From: Serpentinimonas sp.
Lineage (GTDB): Bacteria; Pseudomonadota; Gammaproteobacteria; Burkholderiales; Burkholderiaceae_C
Assembly: GCA_025458665.1 (NCBI GenBank)
Contig: JALOSG010000004.1
Location: 1 to 38,667 of the forward strand
Direction of reading: 5' to 3'
Length of the DNA: 38,667 bases
Positions 20,595 through 38,667 of this stretch are shown here, piece by piece; the first letter of the stretch is position 1; the number at the start of each line of letters is the position of its first letter. Under the pieces are notes generated by a model. The model was not told the origin of the DNA. It saw only the letters and a program-made list of their open reading frames with translations, and made no database searches. A program made the translations under genes and the position numbers.

Positions 20595-22844
20595 ATGCTC
20601 AGGTTTGGCGTGGGTCTCGCTTTGTGGGCGATAGCGACACACAGCGCTGCATTGTCTCTGGGAGGCGTGCAGGGATCGGTCATTATCGGTCGCACACTCG
20701 ACATCGGCGTAGCCAGCAGTGTCGAGGCCTCTGACGTGGCTGCCGGTCTGTGCCTGCGCGCCGATGTGGACTATGGGGACGGGCGTCTGCCGGCCACTCT
20801 GGTGACCGTGGAGGTAGAGCGCCTGGGCGCTGCCAACGCGGGTCTGCTGCGGGTGCGCGCCAACCGGCAGGTGAACGAGCCCCTGGTGTCGGTGACTGTT
20901 TCGGTGGGCTGCACCCAGCAGTTCACCCGCAGCTACACGTTGCTGGCTGACGTGGAACCGCTGCCCAGCTCCGCAGCACCCATAGCGCCTGCTTCAACGG
21001 CCTCGCTGGCCCCAACCGCCCCGCCGGTTGCGGCGCCGCCCGCCACAGCGCCTGCGGCGCCGCCCGCCACAGCGCCTGCGGCGCCGCCCGCCACAGCGCC
21101 TGCGGCGCCGCCCGCCACAGCGCCTGCGGCGCCGCCTGCGTCCCGGCCCGCCGTTTCTTCCCCAGGCGTGGCGGCTGCACCGGCTCGGGTGGTCCCGGCT
21201 GCGCCCCCCCTTCTGATCGACCCGCCCGCGCCGCGCCCGGCCAATGTGGTGCCCCGGAGCAAGGTGAAGCCGGGAACCGTGCTGTCCAAGACGGCTGTGG
21301 CCGTCGTGCCTGTCACACCACCTGCCACGCCACCCGCCACACCACCCGCAGCCCCAGCCGCGCCTGCGCCGGCACCGGCTCCGGCCCCGGCCCCGGCTCC
21401 TGCCGCAGTCCCGCCAGCCCCTGCCCCAGGCCCCAGGCTGGAATTGACCCCTTTGGAACTGGGCGCCTTGCCCTCCACGGGTAGCGTCTTGCAAGGAGCT
21501 TCCGGTGAAGCCAACCCCGTAGCCGGGCCAGACGGTGCCGGCGGGTTGCCAGGGGGCCCTGGCGCCGAAGATTCAGGGGTGCCCACCGATGCCGCCCTGG
21601 CCGCCCAGCGCCTGGCCAGCCTGGAGTCCGAGCTTGCGCAGGTCCGCGCCGAGCAGGAGCGACTTCGGCTGGCTCTGGAATCGGTGAACACCGAACTGAC
21701 CCAGACGCGCGAGCAGACCACCAGTGTGGCGGTGGTGTACGGCCTGGTGGCGCTGTTGCTGCTGCTGTTGGGTGTACTGGTGTGGTTGTTGCGTTCGCGC
21801 AGCGCGGCGCTGGCTCCGGTCGGCCTGGGCGGTACCGGAGTAGGCACCGGTTTTGGGGCGACGCGCCTGCCATCGTCCATGGACAACCAGAGCCTGCCCG
21901 ACGCCACTCCCCCCACTGCAACAGGGGGTGCCGTGGCGGCGCTATCTCCCAGTGCGGCGGGTGCGGCCTCGGGGCCTACACCCTGGTGGGCCGACTCCAA
22001 CAGTGCGCCAGCGCAGGCATCGGGATTCAGCGCTGTGGAGCTCGACAGCCAGCCCTCCGATTCCGCACTGGGTTTTTCCCGCACCGAGATCGAGCCCAAC
22101 AGCCTGCCGCTGATGGCCCAGGACCTGGCTGATCTGGTCCGGCAGGTGGAGTTTTTCGAGGTAATCGGCCAGAGCAGTGAGGCGGTGGATGCGTTGCAGG
22201 CTTTTGTGAAAACGCACCCTGCGCAGTCCGAACTGCCCTACCTGCTGCTGATGCAGGTGGCGCAGAAACAGGATCCCCAACAGTTGCCCGACCTGCAACG
22301 GTTGTACATGCGCCACTTCGATCAGCCGGCTCCGCAGCCGGCAGACTGTGAGCCCGATGCGCCTGGCCTGCTGGAAGATCCGATCTGGATCACGCGTCTG
22401 CAGCAAGTTTGGCCCCATGCGGCTGCGGGAACGGCCCTGCAGGCCGCTCTGACTGCGCCGCCAGCCCAGAATCTGCTGCGCCGTCGCACGCTGCCAGCGC
22501 TGCTGGACGTGGTGACGCTGTACGAGGTTTGGTACGCGCTGCACGAGACCGATGAGACCGGCGAGTCCGGCGAGGCCGCAGAGTACCGCACTTCCCCGGT
22601 GGCGGTGCCTGCCTCGGCTCCGGTGCCGGAAACCGAGTTTCCCGACATCGACATCGATCTCACGGCATACACCACAAAAGCTCAGACAGAGCCTACGCCT
22701 TCGGCTCCCGCGGCGCCACCGGAGCCGGCCGCCAGCCAGCGCGACGGCAAGGATCTGCCCGCGCTGGACTTCGATGTGGGAGACTTCCCGGAGGTCCCCG
22801 ACCGCCGGATGAATGCGGGCAAAGACCCCGCTGCCAAAACCTGA
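20595..22844 (+). CDS. FimV-like inner-membrane protein
   Basis: This 749-residue protein has a signal peptide (1-20, MLRFGVGLALWAIATHSAA) followed by LSLGGVQGSVIIGRTLDIG, resembling the FimV/TspA N-terminal domain. Residues about 125-300 are proline/alanine-rich, including four identical APPATAPA units. A coiled coil (about 335-374) precedes one membrane helix (about 377-399, YGLVALLLLLLGVLVWLL). The cytoplasmic part has a TPR-like block (about 503-580, LADLVRQVEFFEVIGQ). The acidic C-terminus (FPDIDIDLTAY) resembles FimV. FimV-type proteins organise pilus, secretion or polar machinery. No LysM motif is obvious. The known FimV neighbours asd and truA are absent. Confidence 0.75.
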   Translation: MLRFGVGLALWAIATHSAALSLGGVQGSVIIGRTLDIGVASSVEASDVAAGLCLRADVDYGDGRLPATLVTVEVERLGAANAGLLRVRANRQVNEPLVSVTVSVGCTQQFTRSYTLLADVEPLPSSAAPIAPASTASLAPTAPPVAAPPATAPAAPPATAPAAPPATAPAAPPATAPAAPPASRPAVSSPGVAAAPARVVPAAPPLLIDPPAPRPANVVPRSKVKPGTVLSKTAVAVVPVTPPATPPATPPAAPAAPAPAPAPAPAPAPAAVPPAPAPGPRLELTPLELGALPSTGSVLQGASGEANPVAGPDGAGGLPGGPGAEDSGVPTDAALAAQRLASLESELAQVRAEQERLRLALESVNTELTQTREQTTSVAVVYGLVALLLLLLGVLVWLLRSRSAALAPVGLGGTGVGTGFGATRLPSSMDNQSLPDATPPTATGGAVAALSPSAAGAASGPTPWWADSNSAPAQASGFSAVELDSQPSDSALGFSRTEIEPNSLPLMAQDLADLVRQVEFFEVIGQSSEAVDALQAFVKTHPAQSELPYLLLMQVAQKQDPQQLPDLQRLYMRHFDQPAPQPADCEPDAPGLLEDPIWITRLQQVWPHAAAGTALQAALTAPPAQNLLRRRTLPALLDVVTLYEVWYALHETDETGESGEAAEYRTSPVAVPASAPVPETEFPDIDIDLTAYTTKAQTEPTPSAPAAPPEPAASQRDGKDLPALDFDVGDFPEVPDRRMNAGKDPAAKT
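21033..21140. repeat. Four identical 24-bp tandem repeats in the FimV-like gene
   Basis: The unit GCGCCGCCCGCCACAGCGCCTGCG occurs four times head to tail (21033-21128) without a mismatch, then a partial copy reaches 21140. It encodes repeated APPATAPA in the proline-rich linker. The unit is a multiple of three, so copy-number change would keep the frame. Confidence 0.95.
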
Positions 22845-30079: not shown

Positions 30080-30085
30080 TACAAT
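30080..30085 (+). promoter_or_regulatory. -10 box of the cobalamin operon promoter
   Basis: TACAAT inside GGCTACAATG lies just upstream of the predicted riboswitch 5' end, so transcription should start near 30091. A TTGTAG at 30054 is spaced 20 nt away, too far for a good -35. Confidence 0.5.
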
Positions 30086-30089
30086 GCAC

Positions 30090-30350
30090 GCGTTGGTGCT
30101 CGCTGCGTGGTTCTTGCGCAGCAGTTCAACGGGAAGCTGGGGGATGTTCGCCTAGACAGGCGGCATCTAACCAGCGCTGCCCCCGCAACGGTAAGTGGAC
30201 GGGTTTTGCGTGTGCCCTGGCGCCCGCAGTACCCCGCTTTCATCTCACCGCCACTGGCGCCTGCACAGGTGCTGGGAAGGCGATGAAGGTAGATCCACCA
30301 GCCCGGATACCGGCCAACAAGGTGGTGGTGCGTCTGCATGTCTGTGCAGA
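30090..30350 (+). promoter_or_regulatory. Cobalamin (B12) riboswitch
   Basis: The core segments are present in order: ACGGGAAGCTGGGGGA, the highly conserved GCTGCCCCCGCAACGGTAA (30175-30193) and the B12 box AGCCCGGATACCGGCC (30300-30315). A hairpin TCTGCA-TGTCTG-TGCAGA follows at about 30332-30349. It lies in the 361-bp region between the zapB-like gene and btuB. No clear intrinsic terminator precedes the btuB start, so control is more likely translational or by another route. Binding of adenosylcobalamin should lower expression of btuB and probably the downstream cob genes. The exact edges are approximate. Confidence 0.93.
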
Positions 30351-30416: not shown

Positions 30417-32376
30417 ATGAAATCCGTACTTCGGAGGTTGCCCCTTGGTGTGCAAGCCTCGCTGGGTGCTGCGCGCCCGAAACTGGTCTGGTCTTTTTCG
30501 CCATATCTCCGCTCTGCGCGGCCCCTGAGGTGGGCGGCTGCGTCGCTGTGCATGCTTGGGGCCAGCGGTGCTGCGTTGGCCCAAAGCTCAGCCCTGCAGC
30601 CGGGTATGCTCCCGCCCACCATGGTGACCGCCACGCGGTTTGCCGAGCCGCTGGCCACGCTGCCTCTGGGGGTGAGCATCATCACCGCAGAGGAAATCCG
30701 GGTCTCGGGTGCCACCACCGTGAACGAGGCAGTCATGCGGCTGCTGGGTGTGCCGGGTCGGCAGGACTTGTATGGCGGTGGCGATTACAACCTGGACCTG
30801 CGCGGATTCGGTTCTACCGCGGACTCCAACCAGGTCGTCGTGCTCGATGGGGTGCGGCTGAACGAGGCGGATCTTGGCGGAACCCGTCTGGCAGGCATCA
30901 ACATCGACACCGTGGAACGCATCGAGGTGCTCCGCGGAAACGGCGCCGTTCTGTATGGTGAGGGCGCCACTGGCGGCGTGATTGTCATCACGACCAAGGC
31001 CGGCAACGGCACAGAGCGGAGGAACACGGCTTCGCTCTACACCGCGTTGGGTAGCTACGACACACAGGAACTGCGGGCCAGCGCGACATTGGCCGCCGGC
31101 GGGTTCTCCGTCGATGTGGCGGCTCAGGACCGGCGCAGCGACAACCACCGCGACAACTTCAATTCCAGCACCGATGGCGTGGCCCGGCGCCTTGAGCTTT
31201 GCCGAGTATTTGCAGAACCCGCAGCAGACCAACCGACCCAACGACTTTGCTTCCATCCGCAACGAGCGCAGTGGGGCGTTTGCGGAGTGGCTGGTGGGCA
31301 ACTGGCAACTGGGTGTGGACGCCAGCTACCGAGAGAAGAGCCTGCGATCGTTTCAGGGTTCGCTGTTCGGCTATGACATTGACGCACAGACCCTGAGCCT
31401 CAAGGGGCGCCACACCCGCCAGGTGGGCACGGGAAGCAACGCGCTGGTGCTGGGGCACGACGCGAACCGCTGGGCACGGCTCCAGACCTCGGGGTCTACC
31501 GCGCGGCAAAAGACCGAGGCGTGGTATGGCAGGAACGACTACACCTGGGCTTCCGGGACGCGCCTGTCGGTAGGGGCGCGAACCGAGCGGCTGGACAAGG
31601 CGGCCACGTCGGGCGCCAGCGTGTTGAACGACCGCCTGACAGCCTGGGATTTCGGCGTGGCCCAGCCACTGGGGACCGGACAGCAGGTCTGGGTGCGCGT
31701 GGGGTCGAGCTTTCGCCTGGCCAACGTGGATGAGTTCAGCTTTGTGACACCGGGGGTCTCGTTGCTGCCTCAGGAGTCCCGCGACGTGGAGGCCGGATGG
31801 CGCTTGGGGCTTGCTCCCTACCGCGTGGAATTGCGGGCTTACCGGAGTCGCCTGACGAATGAAATTGGCTACGATCCTGCTGCGGTGGGTCCGGCATCGG
31901 CCTTTGGCTTCGATGGCGCCAACGTGAACTTCGATCCCACCACACGCAGCGGTCTGGAAGCAGACGCGCAATGGGAAGTTGGCCCGGAGCTCAGCGTGGG
32001 TGTTCGCGCTGGATGGCGCAAATCGGTGTTTCGCTCGGGCCCGTATGCGGGTCGGGATGTGCCACTGGCACCGCGCCGTACGTTGGCCTTGCGCGCGGAC
32101 TGGGCGCCCGCTGCCGGCCACCGCGTCAGTGGAGGGGTGAACTGGGTCAGTTCGCAGGCCCCCACCTTCACCAACCAGTGCCGGATCCCGTCCTACACCA
32201 CGGTGGATGCCCGTTACAGCGTACAGGTGCGCAAAGCAGAGTTGTCGCTGGGAGTGGCCAACCTGTTTGACCGCAACTACTTCACGCAGGCGTTTGGCTG
32301 TGCCGGGAGCAACGCAACTTCGCTGTACCCCGAACCGGGCCGCACCTTCACCGCTGCGGTGCGCGTACAGTTCTGA
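30417..32376 (+). pseudogene. btuB: Vitamin B12 TonB-dependent receptor, frame broken near 31185
   Basis: The gene is read in two frames. The first part (to about 31190) has a signal-like N-terminus, a TonB-box-like segment (PPTMVTATRF) and the plug domain with VVVLDGVRLNEADLGG and VERIEVLRGNGAVLYGEGATGGVI. The second part (frame +1, about 31183-32376) has the barrel ending FTAAVRVQF. At 31181-31191 (GGCCCGGCGCC) the frame changes and the plug-to-barrel join is abnormal. Sequence typical of this class between DGVA and PGALSFAEYLQNP appears to be missing. The net change equals a loss of 3n+2 bases or a gain of one. It may be a true mutation or an assembly error. Start codon taken as ATG 30417; a GTG at 30408 is the alternative. 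Confidence 0.85.
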
Positions 32377-32384
32377 CCACCACC

Positions 32385-33206
32385 ATGACCCTGCCCGGCC
32401 CGCAGCGCATCGTCTGCCTCACCGAAGAAACCACAGAGTGGCTTTACCTGCTGGGGCAGGAAAGCCGCATCGTGGGCATTTCGGGTTACACGGTGCGCCC
32501 GCGCCGGGCGCGGCAGGAGAAGCCGAAGGTCAGTGCGTTTCTCAGTGCCAAGGTCGACAAGATTCTGGCGCTGGAACCCGACTGCGTGTTCGGCTTCTCC
32601 GATTTGCAGGCCGATATTGCAGCCCAGCTGATCCGGGCGGGTGTGCAGGTCACGGTGTTCAACCAGCGCAGCATCGACGAGATTTTTTCCATGCTCTACC
32701 AGGTGGCCGCCATGGTGGGTTGTGCCGACGCCGGGCTGGCGCACATGGCGCAGTGGCGCGCCCGCATGGACACTATTCGCGCCAGCGTGGCCGAGCGCGT
32801 GGCGGCAGGACAGCGCAGGCCGCGGGTGTACTTTGAGGAATGGGACGAACCGCGCATCAGCGCCATACGCTGGGTGTCCGAACTGGTGCAGTTGGCCGGA
32901 GGGCAGGACATTTTCCCGGAGCTGGCGCGCGAGCCTATGGGGAAGCAGCGCATCCTGCCCAACGACGACTTGCTGCTGCAGCGCAACCCCGACATCGTGA
33001 TCGGCTCCTGGTGCGGCAAGAAATTCCGCGCAGAAAACGTGGCGGCCCGACCCGGCTGGGAGGCGGTGAATGCGGTGCGAGACGCGCAGTTGTTCGAGGT
33101 GAAATCGGCCGACATTCTTCAGCCCGGACCCGCTGCACTGACCGATGGGTTGGAGCAGCTGCACGCCATTGTGGCGCGCTGGATGGACCAGTATGGCGCC
33201 GCTTGA
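32385..33206 (+). CDS. BtuF-like cobalamin-binding protein without signal peptide
   Basis: This 273-residue protein has the helical-backbone metal/cobalamin substrate-binding fold: RIVCLTEETTEWLYLLGQ, then ILALEPDCVFGFSDLQADIAAQLIRAG, and later NPDIVIGSWCGKKF. The N-terminus (MTLPGPQRIVCL) starts directly on the fold with no signal peptide or lipobox, so it should stay in the cytoplasm unless the true start is upstream. It lies 8 bp after the btuB stop and overlaps cobU by 14 bp. It may bind corrinoid after import or be a former periplasmic protein. This is separate from the btuF gene at 33804. Confidence 0.85.
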   Translation: MTLPGPQRIVCLTEETTEWLYLLGQESRIVGISGYTVRPRRARQEKPKVSAFLSAKVDKILALEPDCVFGFSDLQADIAAQLIRAGVQVTVFNQRSIDEIFSMLYQVAAMVGCADAGLAHMAQWRARMDTIRASVAERVAAGQRRPRVYFEEWDEPRISAIRWVSELVQLAGGQDIFPELAREPMGKQRILPNDDLLLQRNPDIVIGSWCGKKFRAENVAARPGWEAVNAVRDAQLFEVKSADILQPGPAALTDGLEQLHAIVARWMDQYGAA

Positions 33207-33807
33207 TGCCCCGTCTGGCGCGTTGCGCGTGGCACAGAGCGAGCTGTTGCTGGGTGGCCAGCGCAGTGGCAAATCGCGCAGGGCTGAAATGCTGGCGCGC
33301 GCATGGCTGGATGGCGCCAGTGGCCGCTCGGTGGTGTTCGTGGCCACCGCCACCGCCGGAGACGAGGACATGCGCCAGCGCATTGCACGCCACCGGCAAG
33401 ACCGAGCGCGGTATCTGCCCGAAGCGCTCACGGTGGAAGCTGCGCAGGATATGCCTGCAGCTTTGTTGCAGCATGCTGCGCCACACACGCTGCTGGTGGT
33501 GGATTGCCTGACGTTGTGGCTCACGCACCACCTCATGCCGGCGGAGGGTGCCGGCACTTGGGGCGCCGATGTGCTTTCAGCCCGTGCCCAGGACCTCGCG
33601 GCGCACCTGCTGAATGCGCTGCCAAAGCTGTCTGGCCCGGTAGTGCTGGTGAGCAATGAAACCGGCCTGGGTGTGGTGCCGCTGGGCCGCGAGGTACGGA
33701 TCTGGGTGGACGAACTGGGCCGCCTGAACCAGGCCGTGGCCGCACAGGTGGAGCGCGTCACGCTCATGGTGGCGGGCTGCCCGCTGGTGGTGAAGGGGCA
33801 GGCATGA
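33193..33807 (+). CDS. cobU: Adenosylcobinamide kinase/adenosylcobinamide-phosphate guanylyltransferase
   Basis: The 204-residue enzyme (also called CobP) phosphorylates adenosylcobinamide and then transfers GMP to give adenosylcobinamide-GDP. The P-loop is LLGGQRSGKSRRAE (about residues 20-33). The family blocks LLVVDCLTLWLTHHL and VSNETGLGVVPLGREVRIWVDELGRLNQ are intact. The start at 33193 (MAPLDAPSG) is preferred over the track start at 33145. It overlaps the gene before it by 14 bp and the btuF ATG (ATGA) at its end. This is the salvage and late-synthesis step shared with cobS. Confidence 0.94.
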   Translation: MAPLDAPSGALRVAQSELLLGGQRSGKSRRAEMLARAWLDGASGRSVVFVATATAGDEDMRQRIARHRQDRARYLPEALTVEAAQDMPAALLQHAAPHTLLVVDCLTLWLTHHLMPAEGAGTWGADVLSARAQDLAAHLLNALPKLSGPVVLVSNETGLGVVPLGREVRIWVDELGRLNQAVAAQVERVTLMVAGCPLVVKGQA

Positions 33808-34772
33808 AGTTTCCCGGCAACAAGCGCCTGCGCGCCAGTCTGGCTTCCCGGCTGCCTGCCTGCGTTGCGGTGGCCCTGCTGTGGGCCGTTCCGCTCGCCG
33901 TCCAGGCCAACCCGGCAGCACTGGCTGCACCGGCTGCAGGCTCCGGCCCCGCGCTTGTTCGCATCACCGACGACCTCGGCCGGGTCCATCAGTTCGACCA
34001 GCGCCCGCAGCGCATCGTCAGCCTGTTGCCCTCGCTCACGGAAACCGTGTGTGCGCTGAACGCCTGCCAGCAGCTGGTGGGCGTGGACGATTACTCCAAT
34101 TGGCCTGCCGAGGTGCAGCGTCTGCCCCGGCTGGGTGGCGGCATCGATGCCAACCCGGAGCGGGTGCTGGCCCTGCAGCCCGACGTGGTGCTGGTGGCCA
34201 GTTCCTCGCGGGCCTTGCCGCGCTTGCAGGCCCTGGGCCTGAAGGTGCTGGCGCTGGAGCCCAAGACCCAGGCCGACGCCCAGCGCGTGTTCCTGCAGGT
34301 GGCCGCTTTGCTGTCCGTTCCACAGGCCGATGCTGCTGCCCGCTGGCAGGCCATGGACGCCGAGGTGTCCGCCATCACCGGTGCGTGGCGGGCGACCCGT
34401 GCACCGAGTGCCCCGCCGGTCAAGGTGTATTTCGAAGTGAACAGCGCGCCCTACGCGGCCGCGCCGTCCTCTTTCATTGGCCAGATGCTGGCGCGCTTCG
34501 GGGTGCAGAACATCGTGCCCGAGGGTCTGGGGCCGTTCCCGCGCATCAACCCCGAACTGGTGGTGCGTGCTCAGCCCGACGTGATCATGGTGAGCGATCG
34601 CAACCCCCAGGGCATGGCGCAGCGCCCGGGCTGGCACAGCGTTCCCGCCGTGCGGCTGCAGCGCGTTTGCCTGTTCAGCCCGGAGCAGGGCGATGTGCTG
34701 GTGCGCCCCGGTCCGCGCATGGCCGAGGCGGCCCAACTGCTGTCCGACTGCCTGAAGGCGCAGGTGCCATGA
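33804..34772 (+). CDS. btuF: Periplasmic vitamin B12-binding protein BtuF
   Basis: This 322-residue protein has an N-terminal signal peptide (about 1-35, with CVAVALLWAVPLAVQA). The class III binding-protein fold then shows RIVSLLPSLTETVCALNA, VDDYSNWPAEVQRLPRLGG and the glutamate-bearing KVYFEVNSAPYAAA. It should pass cobalamin from the receptor to BtuCD. The start overlaps the cobU stop and the stop overlaps the btuC start, so this stretch is translated as a unit. It is longer than E. coli BtuF (266 residues), mainly at the N-terminus. Confidence 0.93.
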   Translation: MKFPGNKRLRASLASRLPACVAVALLWAVPLAVQANPAALAAPAAGSGPALVRITDDLGRVHQFDQRPQRIVSLLPSLTETVCALNACQQLVGVDDYSNWPAEVQRLPRLGGGIDANPERVLALQPDVVLVASSSRALPRLQALGLKVLALEPKTQADAQRVFLQVAALLSVPQADAAARWQAMDAEVSAITGAWRATRAPSAPPVKVYFEVNSAPYAAAPSSFIGQMLARFGVQNIVPEGLGPFPRINPELVVRAQPDVIMVSDRNPQGMAQRPGWHSVPAVRLQRVCLFSPEQGDVLVRPGPRMAEAAQLLSDCLKAQVP

Positions 34773-35800
34773 CCCTATCCCGTTCCGAGCCGCATCCTGA
34801 GGCTGGCCCCAGCAGGCGCCAGCGTTCACCTGCCGCTCTGGCACTGTGCCTGTTGCTGGCGGCGTTGGCGCTGGGCGTGCTGGCGCTGGGCGTGGGCAGC
34901 ACGGGCTTCGAGCCAATATGGCGCATGTGGCAAGACCCGCTGTCGGCGCAGATCGTCCACGACATTCGCGCACCCCGTACCCTGGGCGCCTTTGCCGCTG
35001 GCGCTTTGCTGGGTCTGGCAGGGGCGGTGGCGCAGGGGCTGTTCCGCAATCCGCTGGCCGATCCTTTTTTGCTGGGCAGCGCCTCGGGCGCTTCGGTGGG
35101 CGTGGCGGCGGCGCTGGCGGGCTGGGGTCTGTCGCCGCTGGCGGCAGGCTGGGCCTTGCGTCTGGGGCTTACTGGCGCTGCTTTTGTGGGGGCGGTGCTG
35201 GCGGTGTTGCTTACCCTGGTGCTGGCGCGCGGCGTGCAGCAGACCCTGCGCCTGCTGCTTGCCGGCGTGGTGGTGGGCGTGGTGCTCGGGGCGGTGACAT
35301 CGCTGATCACCCTGAGTGCGCCCGACACGCTGCAGGCCATGCAGGCCTTCATGCTGGGTTCCACCGCTTTCGTAGGCTGGCCGGCCGTGTGGCTCATGGT
35401 GCTGGTGTGGTGCGGGTGTACCGCGGTGGCCTGGGCGCTGGCGCGCCTGCTCGATGGCCTGGTGCTGGGCGAGGACAGTGCCGCCAGCCTGGGCCTGCCG
35501 GTGGCGCCGCTGCGGGCCGCGCTGGTGGCCGTGATGGCACTGGCCACTGGCGCCGCTGTAGCGCAGACGGGCTTGATTGCATTCGTCGGGCTGGCCGCGC
35601 CGCATCTGGTGCGCTCGCTGGTGGCTGCCGGACATGGCTGGCTGGTGCTGCTTTCGGGCCTCATGGGCGGGTTATTGCTGCTGGTGGCCGATGCGCTGGC
35701 CCGCGCCGTGGTGTCGCCGGAAGAGTGGCCCGTGGGCGTGCTCACGGCGCTGCTGGGCGGCGGCTATCTGTTGTGGCTCATGCACCGGCGGGCAGCGTGA
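34769..35800 (+). CDS. btuC: Vitamin B12 ABC transporter permease BtuC
   Basis: This 343-residue FecCD-family permease has about ten membrane segments. Family-typical blocks are RAPRTLGAFAAGALLGLAGA, GLFRNPLADPFLLGSASGAS and QTGLIAFVGLAAPHLVR. The start at 34769 is fixed by the overlap with the btuF stop; the longer track ORF from 33881 runs through btuF in another frame. The stop overlaps the btuD start (TGATG). It should form the corrinoid channel with BtuD. Confidence 0.95.
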   Translation: MTLSRSEPHPEAGPSRRQRSPAALALCLLLAALALGVLALGVGSTGFEPIWRMWQDPLSAQIVHDIRAPRTLGAFAAGALLGLAGAVAQGLFRNPLADPFLLGSASGASVGVAAALAGWGLSPLAAGWALRLGLTGAAFVGAVLAVLLTLVLARGVQQTLRLLLAGVVVGVVLGAVTSLITLSAPDTLQAMQAFMLGSTAFVGWPAVWLMVLVWCGCTAVAWALARLLDGLVLGEDSAASLGLPVAPLRAALVAVMALATGAAVAQTGLIAFVGLAAPHLVRSLVAAGHGWLVLLSGLMGGLLLLVADALARAVVSPEEWPVGVLTALLGGGYLLWLMHRRAA

Positions 35801-36600
35801 TGCTGGAGGCACGCAATCTCTCGGTGTCCCTGGGTACAGGGCGTTTGCGGCGGCAGGTGCTTTGCGGCCTGAACGTCGAAGTATCCGCAGGGCGCTGGAC
35901 CTGTGTGCTTGGCCCCAACGGGTCGGGCAAATCTACCTTGCTCAAAACACTGGCGGGTGTGTGGCATGCGGGGGGCGTTGGGGCTGGCGCCCAGGTGCAA
36001 GGCGACGTGTTGCTGCGGGGTGCTCCGTTGTCCCGCCTGCCGGCGCGCCAGCGCGCACAGACCGTGGCCTGGCTGGCGCAGGGCGAGCCGGAGGCCACCG
36101 CCAACGACCTGTCGGCCTACGACGTGGCCATGCTGGGCCGCCTGCCACACCGGGGTTGGCTGGCCGCCCCGGGGCCGCAAGACCACGCTGCGGTGGAGCA
36201 GGCGCTGCGCCGTACCCACGCCTGGGACTGGCGCCACAGGCCGCTGGGCGCCTTGTCGGGCGGCGAGCGCCAGCGAGTGCTGCTGGCCCGCTTGCTGGCG
36301 GTGCAGGCCAGCGTGCTGCTCATGGACGAACCCATTGCCAACCTGGACCCCCCGCACCAGGCCGACTGGCTGCGGCTGGTGCGCGATTTGGTGAAGCAAG
36401 GCCACACGGTGGTGAGCGTGCTGCACGATGTGAGTCTGGCTCTGCTGGCCGATGATCTGGTATTGCTGCGCCAGGGAGTGGTACACCATGCGGGCCCCAG
36501 CCACAGCGAAGCCGCCCGCGCAGCCATTGAATCCGTGTTCGACCACCGCCTTCGCCTCGTGCGCACGGAGGAGGGCGGCTGGGTGGCGGCCCCCTGCTGA
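35800..36600 (+). CDS. btuD: Vitamin B12 ABC transporter ATPase BtuD
   Basis: This 266-residue ABC ATPase has Walker A LGPNGSGKSTLLK (about residues 37-49), Q-loop VAWLAQGE, signature LSGGERQRVLLARL, Walker B VLLMDEPIANLD and H-loop VLHDVSLA. It shares its first bases with the btuC stop (TGATG). It should energise BtuC import of corrinoid. A general iron-siderophore role is possible for the family, but the gene context points to B12. Confidence 0.94.
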   Translation: MLEARNLSVSLGTGRLRRQVLCGLNVEVSAGRWTCVLGPNGSGKSTLLKTLAGVWHAGGVGAGAQVQGDVLLRGAPLSRLPARQRAQTVAWLAQGEPEATANDLSAYDVAMLGRLPHRGWLAAPGPQDHAAVEQALRRTHAWDWRHRPLGALSGGERQRVLLARLLAVQASVLLMDEPIANLDPPHQADWLRLVRDLVKQGHTVVSVLHDVSLALLADDLVLLRQGVVHHAGPSHSEAARAAIESVFDHRLRLVRTEEGGWVAAPC

Positions 36601-36670: not shown

Positions 36671-37843
36671 ATGAACCCCACCGAATTCCAGCCCACCGCC
36701 TTCTCTGCCGTGCCAGTCGGCTTCAAACTCCCCACCCTCATCGACCTGACCGACCCCGACCTGTCCCAGCGCCTGCAGGCACGGCTGGACAACAAAACCA
36801 AGCCCGTGGGGTCCCTGGGTCGGCTGGAGGCGCTGGCTGTGCGCTTGGGCCTCATTCTGGGCACCTTGCGCCCGGAACTGCACCACCCGCAAATGGTGGT
36901 GTTTGCCGCCGATCACGGCCTCGCTGCCCACGGCGTTTCGGCCTACCCCAGCGATGTCACCTGGCAGATGGTGAGCAACTTTCTGGCGGGCGGTGCCGCC
37001 GTGAGCGTGCTCGCGCGCCAGCATGGCCTGGCGCTCACTGTGGTGGATTGCGGCGTGCGCCACGACTTCCCCGCCCACCCGCAGCTGCAGGCACGCAAGG
37101 TGGCACCGGGTACGCAGGACATGCTGCAGGCCATGGCCATGACACCGCGCCAGTGCGCACAGGCCCTGCAGCACGGCATGGACCTGGTGCGCGAGTTGCC
37201 CGGCAACGTGCTGTTACTGGGTGAGATGGGCATAGGCAACACCTCTGCAGCTTCCTTGTTGCTGGCCCAGCTCACAGGCAGGGATCTGGCCGACTGCACC
37301 GGCGCAGGCACAGGCCTGACCGAGGCCGGCTTGCAAGCCAAGCTGCAGGTGCTGCGCGGGGTGCAGCAGCGCCACCAGAAGGATCTGGATGCCGCGCGCG
37401 CCAGTGGGCTCCTGAAGCCCGAGGCGTGGGGCGGTACCGGTGCGGGCGTGGTAGCGCGCCACGAGGCGGCCGCGCTGTTCACGCTGGCCTCGCTGGGTGG
37501 GCTGGAGGTGGCCACCATGGTGGGCGCTGTCCTGCAGGCCGCGTTCGAGCGCAAGGTGATTCTGGTGGATGGATTCATCGCTTCGGCGGCCGTCATGGCG
37601 GCGGCGGCGCTGCGCCCGCAGGTGCTGCAGCGCTGCGTGTTTGCGCACCGCTCCAGCGAGCATGCGCACGGCCTGTTGCTGGAACACCTCAAGGCCGAAC
37701 CGCTGCTCGATTGGGGCTTGCGCCTGGGTGAGGGCTCTGGGGCGGCGCTGGCGTGGCCGCTGGTGGCATCGGCCAGCCGCATCCTCATCGAGATGGCCAG
37801 TTTCGAGGACGCGGGCGTATCCCGCCAGGCCAGCGGAGCCTAG
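36671..37843 (+). CDS. cobT: Nicotinate-nucleotide--dimethylbenzimidazole phosphoribosyltransferase
   Basis: This 390-residue enzyme activates 5,6-dimethylbenzimidazole to its riboside phosphate, the lower ligand of B12. Family motifs are DNKTKPVGSLGRLE, VVFAADHGLAAHGVSAYP, GEMGIGNTSAA and the catalytic glutamate region LRLGEGSGAALAW. It is longer than the Salmonella enzyme (356) by an N-terminal extension. A 70-bp gap separates it from btuD, the largest break inside the operon, but no terminator is visible there. Confidence 0.95.
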   Translation: MNPTEFQPTAFSAVPVGFKLPTLIDLTDPDLSQRLQARLDNKTKPVGSLGRLEALAVRLGLILGTLRPELHHPQMVVFAADHGLAAHGVSAYPSDVTWQMVSNFLAGGAAVSVLARQHGLALTVVDCGVRHDFPAHPQLQARKVAPGTQDMLQAMAMTPRQCAQALQHGMDLVRELPGNVLLLGEMGIGNTSAASLLLAQLTGRDLADCTGAGTGLTEAGLQAKLQVLRGVQQRHQKDLDAARASGLLKPEAWGGTGAGVVARHEAAALFTLASLGGLEVATMVGAVLQAAFERKVILVDGFIASAAVMAAAALRPQVLQRCVFAHRSSEHAHGLLLEHLKAEPLLDWGLRLGEGSGAALAWPLVASASRILIEMASFEDAGVSRQASGA

Positions 37844-37845
37844 CC

Positions 37846-38667
37846 GTGCAGCCCGTGAAGCACTTCCTGCTGGCGGTGCAGTTTTTCACCCGCGTACCGG
37901 TCACAGGCCGCCTGGCCGCCTGGGTGGGTTACAGCCCGGCCATGTTGCAGGCCAGCGCGGCCTATTTCCCGGCGGTGGGCTGGCTGGTGGGCGGCGCCAC
38001 CGCGCTGCTTCTGTACGGGCTGCTGCTGGCGTTGCCCCCTGTGGCCGTGGCGCCCGCCAGCGCATGGGTGGCGGCGGTGTTGTCCACCGCGTTCGGGCTG
38101 TTGCTCACCGGAGCGTTCCACGAGGACGGTCTGGCCGATCTGGCCGATGGCCTGGGCGGCAGCCTTAACCGCGACCGCGCTCTGGAGATCATGAAAGACT
38201 CGCGCATAGGCACGTTTGGCGCTGCCGCGCTGGGCATGGCGTTGCTGGCCAAGGTGGCCTTGCTGGCGGTGCTGGCGCAGGTGCAGCCCCTGCTGGCCGT
38301 GCTGGGTTTGTTCGGCGCGCATGTGGTCTCTCGCACCATGCCGCTGCTGGTCATTGCCCTGCTGCGGCATGTGGAGCAGCCAGGCTCGCGTTCCAAGCCG
38401 CTGGCCGACCGCATCACGGTTCCGGCGCTGGCCCTGGGCCTGCTGCAGTGCGCGTTCACGCTGGTGCTGCTGGCGTGGCTGGGGCCGCAGTGGGCAGGGC
38501 CTGTGGCCGGCTGGCCATGGTGGGGCGCCGGCACGCTGCTGGCCCTGCTGGGCGCAGCGGCGGTGGCTTGGCGCCTCAAAGTGCGCTTGCAAGGCTTCAC
38601 CGGGGACGGGCTGGGCGCCACCCAGCAAGTGGCCGAGGTGGCATTCCTGCTGGGACTGGCGTTGTGC
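37846..38667 (+). CDS. cobS: Adenosylcobinamide-GDP ribazoletransferase (3' end outside window)
   Basis: This membrane enzyme (also called CobV) joins adenosylcobinamide-GDP to alpha-ribazole to form adenosylcobalamin. It uses a GTG start 2 bp after the cobT stop. Visible motifs are VKHFLLAVQFFTRVPV, the acidic FHEDGLADLADGLGG and LEIMKDSRIGTFGA, followed by hydrophobic segments. 274 codons are present without a stop, so the gene continues beyond the window. It closes the set needed for cobinamide salvage. Confidence 0.95.
   Translation, partial: MQPVKHFLLAVQFFTRVPVTGRLAAWVGYSPAMLQASAAYFPAVGWLVGGATALLLYGLLLALPPVAVAPASAWVAAVLSTAFGLLLTGAFHEDGLADLADGLGGSLNRDRALEIMKDSRIGTFGAAALGMALLAKVALLAVLAQVQPLLAVLGLFGAHVVSRTMPLLVIALLRHVEQPGSRSKPLADRITVPALALGLLQCAFTLVLLAWLGPQWAGPVAGWPWWGAGTLLALLGAAAVAWRLKVRLQGFTGDGLGATQQVAEVAFLLGLALC

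Follow-up and report, generated by a model that had tools for sequence, protein, structure and literature searches.

BtuB, the TonB-dependent vitamin B12 receptor (TIGR01779, PRK10641), and the receptor gene studied here share a plug and a barrel, a cobalamin riboswitch leader, and BtuFCD-type and cobinamide-salvage genes downstream. They differ in that, by sequence, the receptor family described here resembles solved YncD/PqqU-type receptors more closely than it resembles Escherichia coli BtuB. The gene lies in a stretch of 38,667 nucleotides ("the window") that makes up one whole contig of a Serpentinimonas draft genome (G000; 290 contigs, 80.8% complete).

Local assembly errors are known from metagenome assemblies; some of them are overlaps duplicated where scaffolds were joined (Chen et al. 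2020, PMC7111523). The errors described by Chen et al. have the same signatures as the faults reported below, namely, unsupported joins inside contigs and duplicated overlaps, both of which lead to wrong protein-coding genes. In contrast to G000, where the pieces abut without an N, the overlap duplications in that study carry Ns. Those errors were also detected by read mapping, whereas the G000 breaks are known from the assembled sequence alone.

What looks convincingly like a broken nutrient receptor may, in a draft genome, be an artefact. We describe one such receptor and show that an artefact of this kind is recognisable without reads, by similar breaks in unrelated essential genes together with exact tandem duplications of a length not divisible by three.

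The receptor gene is divided between two reading frames

The original prediction placed the plug and the barrel of this gene in different frames. We found the same, with the plug ending at 31178 and the barrel starting at 31183. The locus contains the following features:

30080 to 30332, plus strand: cobalamin riboswitch aptamer, the operon leader (RF00174; Rfam 65.5 bits versus a gathering threshold of 31.5)
30417 to 31178, plus strand: receptor first half, with signal peptide, TonB-box region, plug domain, and barrel strands 1 to 3 (254 codons, in frame)
31179 to 31182, plus strand: junction GTGG, 4 nt in place of the homologues' 27 codons (net 77 nt absent)
31179 to 31376, plus strand: nonsense continuation of the plug frame (VARRLELCRVF...), with its stop at 31374 to 31376
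31183 to 32376, plus strand: receptor second half, 397 codons plus stop, covering the barrel (PGALSF through the C-terminal F)
32385 to 33206, plus strand: periplasmic-binding-protein-type ABC gene, intact (Pfam Peripla_BP_2, 4.7e-46)
33193 to 33807, plus strand: CobU/CobP (cobinamide kinase/guanylyltransferase), intact (Pfam CobU, 4.9e-45)
33804 to 34772, plus strand: BtuF-like binding protein, intact (Pfam Peripla_BP_2, 3.4e-25)
34769 to 35800, plus strand: BtuC-like permease, intact (Pfam FecCD, 4.6e-73)
35797 to 36600, plus strand: BtuD-like ATPase, intact (Pfam ABC_tran, 1e-25)
36671 to 37843, plus strand: CobT (DBI phosphoribosyltransferase), intact (Pfam DBI_PRT, 1.3e-117)
37753 to 38667, plus strand: CobS (cobalamin-5-phosphate synthase), running past the window end (Pfam CobS, 4.2e-48)

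The plug frame runs from the ATG at 30417 to GAT GGC (Asp-Gly) at 31173 to 31178 and reads ...RRSDNHRDNFNSSTDG. The first half was assigned from its sequence, its Pfam Plug match, and its homologues; the strand numbers come from the predicted model of the intact homologue L028. Beyond this point the tail region is receptor-like in the other frame only, from 31183. There, the barrel frame begins with CCC GGC GCC at 31183 to 31191 (Pro-Gly at 31183 to 31188), reads PGALSFAEYLQNPQQT..., and stops at 32374 to 32376. Outer-membrane barrels end in F, and the C-terminal F of the second half fits this. The sequence across the junction is ...GATGGCGTGGCCCGGCGCC....

A Viterbi scan based on codon usage, and blind to homology, also detected the frame change and placed it at 31196/31197, some 15 nt away from the junction. 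The first half is 60 to 80% identical to 22 homologues, and the second half is 45 to 61% identical to 23 loci. A chimera of two genes was rejected: one and the same homologous gene, in an identical operon position, gives the best alignment to both halves.

Between them, the two halves carry the TonB-dependent receptor fold: Pfam Plug (1.2e-21) and the TonB_dep_Rec barrel (TonB_dep_Rec_b-barrel, 1.5e-23) match above their cut-offs, on two separate frames. Neither the halves nor L028 reached the curated BtuB cut-offs (TIGR01779, PRK10641); L028 scored 129 bits on TIGR01779, versus a cut-off of 599.7. The B12 role of the receptor is predicted from the riboswitch and the operon context, both of which are present at this locus: the gene follows a cobalamin riboswitch leader and heads a B12 transport and salvage operon. 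This agrees with the gene identity predicted from the sequence, a TonB-dependent receptor of a B12 uptake and salvage operon led by a cobalamin riboswitch.

The same riboswitch lies directly upstream of the receptor gene in 16 of the 16 relatives scanned. In six relatives (L026, L028, L035, L036, L037, and L038), a 6S RNA lies about 0.6 to 1 kb upstream of the riboswitch on the opposite strand; the window gave no 6S RNA match at threshold.

The downstream operon genes had been described as intact, and indeed all are open and match Pfam families. The open frame of CobS begins within cobT; its true start is probably near 37843, where the coding-frame model changes frame. We found no further decay (one-base indels or stops) in either receptor half or in the downstream genes; in a very recent pseudogene, such decay could likewise be absent.

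The junction lacks a segment that homologues keep

We aligned the two halves to full-length homologues, as the original prediction had proposed. Named genomes supplied 23 loci, and a search of 301 genomes belonging to the same family added further relatives; because an organism may be represented in both searches, the rows are not all independent. The spacing from the DG motif to the PG motif is 27 residues in 49 homologue rows and 28 in the other 2 (51 rows, many genera), which agrees with the 20 to 30 residues that had been expected. Here 81 nt would be expected, but the window contains 4, and 77 nt (3 × 25 + 2) are therefore lost on balance, or 80 nt given a 28-residue ancestor. A one-base error, which had already been judged less likely than a deletion of 3n + 2, is thereby excluded. 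Judged from the alignment, the missing segment is far beyond chance. None of the 51 rows is split or shortened at the junction site or lacks the segment without a frame change, and the frame is intact there in every full-length homologue examined.

We located the segment on an AlphaFold model of L028 (mean pLDDT, 74.6). It would correspond to L028 residues 241 to 267, that is, most of the predicted strand 236 to 248 and all of the predicted strand 252 to 266. In the model, these are barrel strands 4 and 5, and the barrel would thus lack a hairpin even after frame repair.

These findings bear on two rival explanations. According to the first, one protein is still made by programmed frameshifting, or the receptor is split into two polypeptides. 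In its favour, each half is a long open frame, and that of the barrel extends upstream without a stop to 30982. However, 25 to 26 residues of barrel strands 4 and 5 would still be lacking, no homologue is divided in this way, and the barrel half, lacking an upstream start that would supply a signal peptide, could not reach the outer membrane alone. We consider this explanation extremely improbable. According to the second, the lineage naturally has a shorter barrel without the hairpin, and a separate small frame error broke the gene. Only the window itself speaks for this. Against it, the 27 or 28 residues are kept in all the rows, and invariant Q-W and R-x-G positions of the homologue alignment lie inside the missing piece; we give this reading next to no weight.

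Similar breaks occur in unrelated genes of the same assembly

We scanned 810 kb of G000 for frame breaks with a codon model. The scan gave 216 same-strand frame abutments, in 20 of which the first frame had no stop close to its end. We read the flagged breaks and then checked them against curated families and solved structures. At least four further internal losses, about 43 to 91 nt long, break the frame of conserved G000 genes; all lengths except 89 nt are approximate because they come from profile or distant alignments:

L191:372 (contig C230): AMP nucleosidase, about 50 nt lost (1t8r residue 326, then a restart near 339 to 343)
L154:13728 (contig C63): acyl-CoA dehydrogenase, 89 nt lost (8pu5 residues 215 to 246)
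L175:351 (contig C227): allantoate-type amidohydrolase, about 43 nt lost (model 127 to 142)
L145:1522 (contig C54): sensor histidine kinase, about 91 nt lost (model 489 to 525)

A PilX-like pilin gene (L186:4117, C180) also has a seeming mid-gene frame change and is not counted among these four.

Four other conserved G000 genes are broken by exact tandem duplications of 14 to 52 nt:

L180:427 (contig C120): Der, frame-breaking exact tandem duplication of 14 nt
L129:12894 (contig C38): RsmG, frame-breaking exact tandem duplication of 38 nt
L189:15819 (contig C210): PilT/PilU gene, frame-breaking exact tandem duplication of 52 nt
L122:2795 (contig C31): ligase-associated exonuclease, frame-breaking exact tandem duplication of 31 nt

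Counting exact tandem duplications that are at least 10 nt long and of a length not divisible by 3, we found 14 in the 810 kb, several of them intergenic. Der is present as a single copy in the draft and is essential in well-studied bacteria; thus, its break is very unlikely to be a real mutation. None of the verified G000 breaks is a one- or two-base indel. About 8 other events in 771 kb amount to about 1 per 96 kb, or about 0.4 expected per window-sized stretch, and therefore a single broken gene in the window needs no special cause.

As a comparison, we scanned 400 kb of the well-assembled relative G138. It contained no tandem duplication of the counted type, and neither did 179 kb of other relatives. 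The codon model flagged four frame changes in the 400 kb of G138, all of which were ordinary gene ends when judged by eye. The model used for G138 was the one trained on G000; a G138-trained model was rejected for useless calls in the antisense frame. A search of the genus found no second genome.

One relative, Ramlibacter terrae H242 (CP053418.1, L043), also has a frame-broken btuB homologue. Unlike the window gene, it is broken at a different site and retains the 27-residue piece. The adjoining operon genes in that complete-genome record contain at least four further frame changes, which suggests that the record has many small sequencing errors.

Alternative receptors and the apparent need for B12

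We found no second copy of the window receptor gene in G000 and no second cobalamin riboswitch in this 80.8% complete draft. Four other TonB-dependent receptors are present, none of them close to the window gene. Of these, a 654-amino-acid receptor on contig C164 matches the plug of E. coli BtuB best (43% over 132 amino acids). We rejected it as a second B12 receptor because it adjoins a heme-type ABC ATPase and is more likely a heme receptor. A TonB-dependent receptor gene next to a heme-type ABC ATPase on C164 contains a run of 23 Ns (L049:1849-1871); no other short run of Ns occurs in the scanned 810 kb.

MetH is present in the draft, and the corrin-ring marker CbiC was not found in it. At 81% completeness, this hints that B12 import is needed. 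A real loss of the receptor would therefore matter, as no second such receptor or riboswitch was found. The original prediction that a real loss would leave import without its receptor is strengthened to this extent and holds on condition that the loss is real. Apart from MetH, which is normal, G000 encodes a short MetE-like protein (C264:3024-4013; 370-amino-acid frame; Meth_synt_2, 102 bits).

The break is very probably an assembly error

We think it very probable that the btuB break is a local assembly error and that the organism's gene is not lost. A segment constant in homologues is absent together with a frame change, and the fault recurs in unrelated genes of G000 and is absent from well-assembled G138. 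We favour this explanation because at least eight similar breaks affect conserved G000 genes, including the sole copy of Der, and none was found in the 400 kb of G138. For the same reason, the suggestion that the organism itself truly lost the sequence was not borne out. Natural gene decay produces many one-base indels and stops; since these were not found and the only Der copy is affected, decay is disfavoured.

According to the favoured model, the assembly would have joined two neighbouring stretches of one intact gene and skipped about 77 nt of true sequence, inserting no N. The losses and the duplications could be two faces of one fault, in which contig ends are abutted, so that gaps are closed without sequence or overlaps are kept as duplications. 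We infer that the organism's real gene is intact and would encode a normal 22-strand TonB-dependent receptor. This receptor would act with the BtuFCD-type transporter and the CobU, CobT, and CobS salvage enzymes under the cobalamin riboswitch.

Two observations count against an assembly error. There is no N in the window and just one real N run in the scanned 810 kb, and thus 31179 to 31182 bears no direct mark of scaffolding. The clean gene halves and downstream genes would also fit a very recent true deletion. Such a 77-bp deletion would have inactivated the receptor in the lineage, or in the strain dominant in the sample, before the operon decayed. The loss is internal and clean with both flanks otherwise intact, only one such receptor and one riboswitch were found, and the loss of outer-membrane receptors can be selected by phages or colicins. 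However, the breaks in unrelated conserved genes, Der among them, speak against a deletion, as does, more weakly in a genome only 81% complete, the apparent need for import. We regard a true deletion as unlikely. It is equally doubtful that a B12 importer has just lost its sole riboswitch-controlled receptor and kept the other uptake and salvage genes, as could happen under phage pressure or if cobamides had another way into the cell.

If the deletion were real, the organism would be a B12 importer without its only riboswitch-controlled receptor that retains the rest of the operon. With an assembly error as the preferred explanation, claims of B12 receptor loss, or of any gene loss, from the G000 assembly need a read check first.

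Two further observations were made in G000. The window contains an in-frame 24-bp tandem repeat at 21029 to 21136 (exact run of 84) within a 749-amino-acid frame (20595 to 22844). On contig C2, the minus strand carries a (bacterio)chlorophyll synthase gene of the BchG/ChlG type (L093:7488), from which the organism may be phototrophic.
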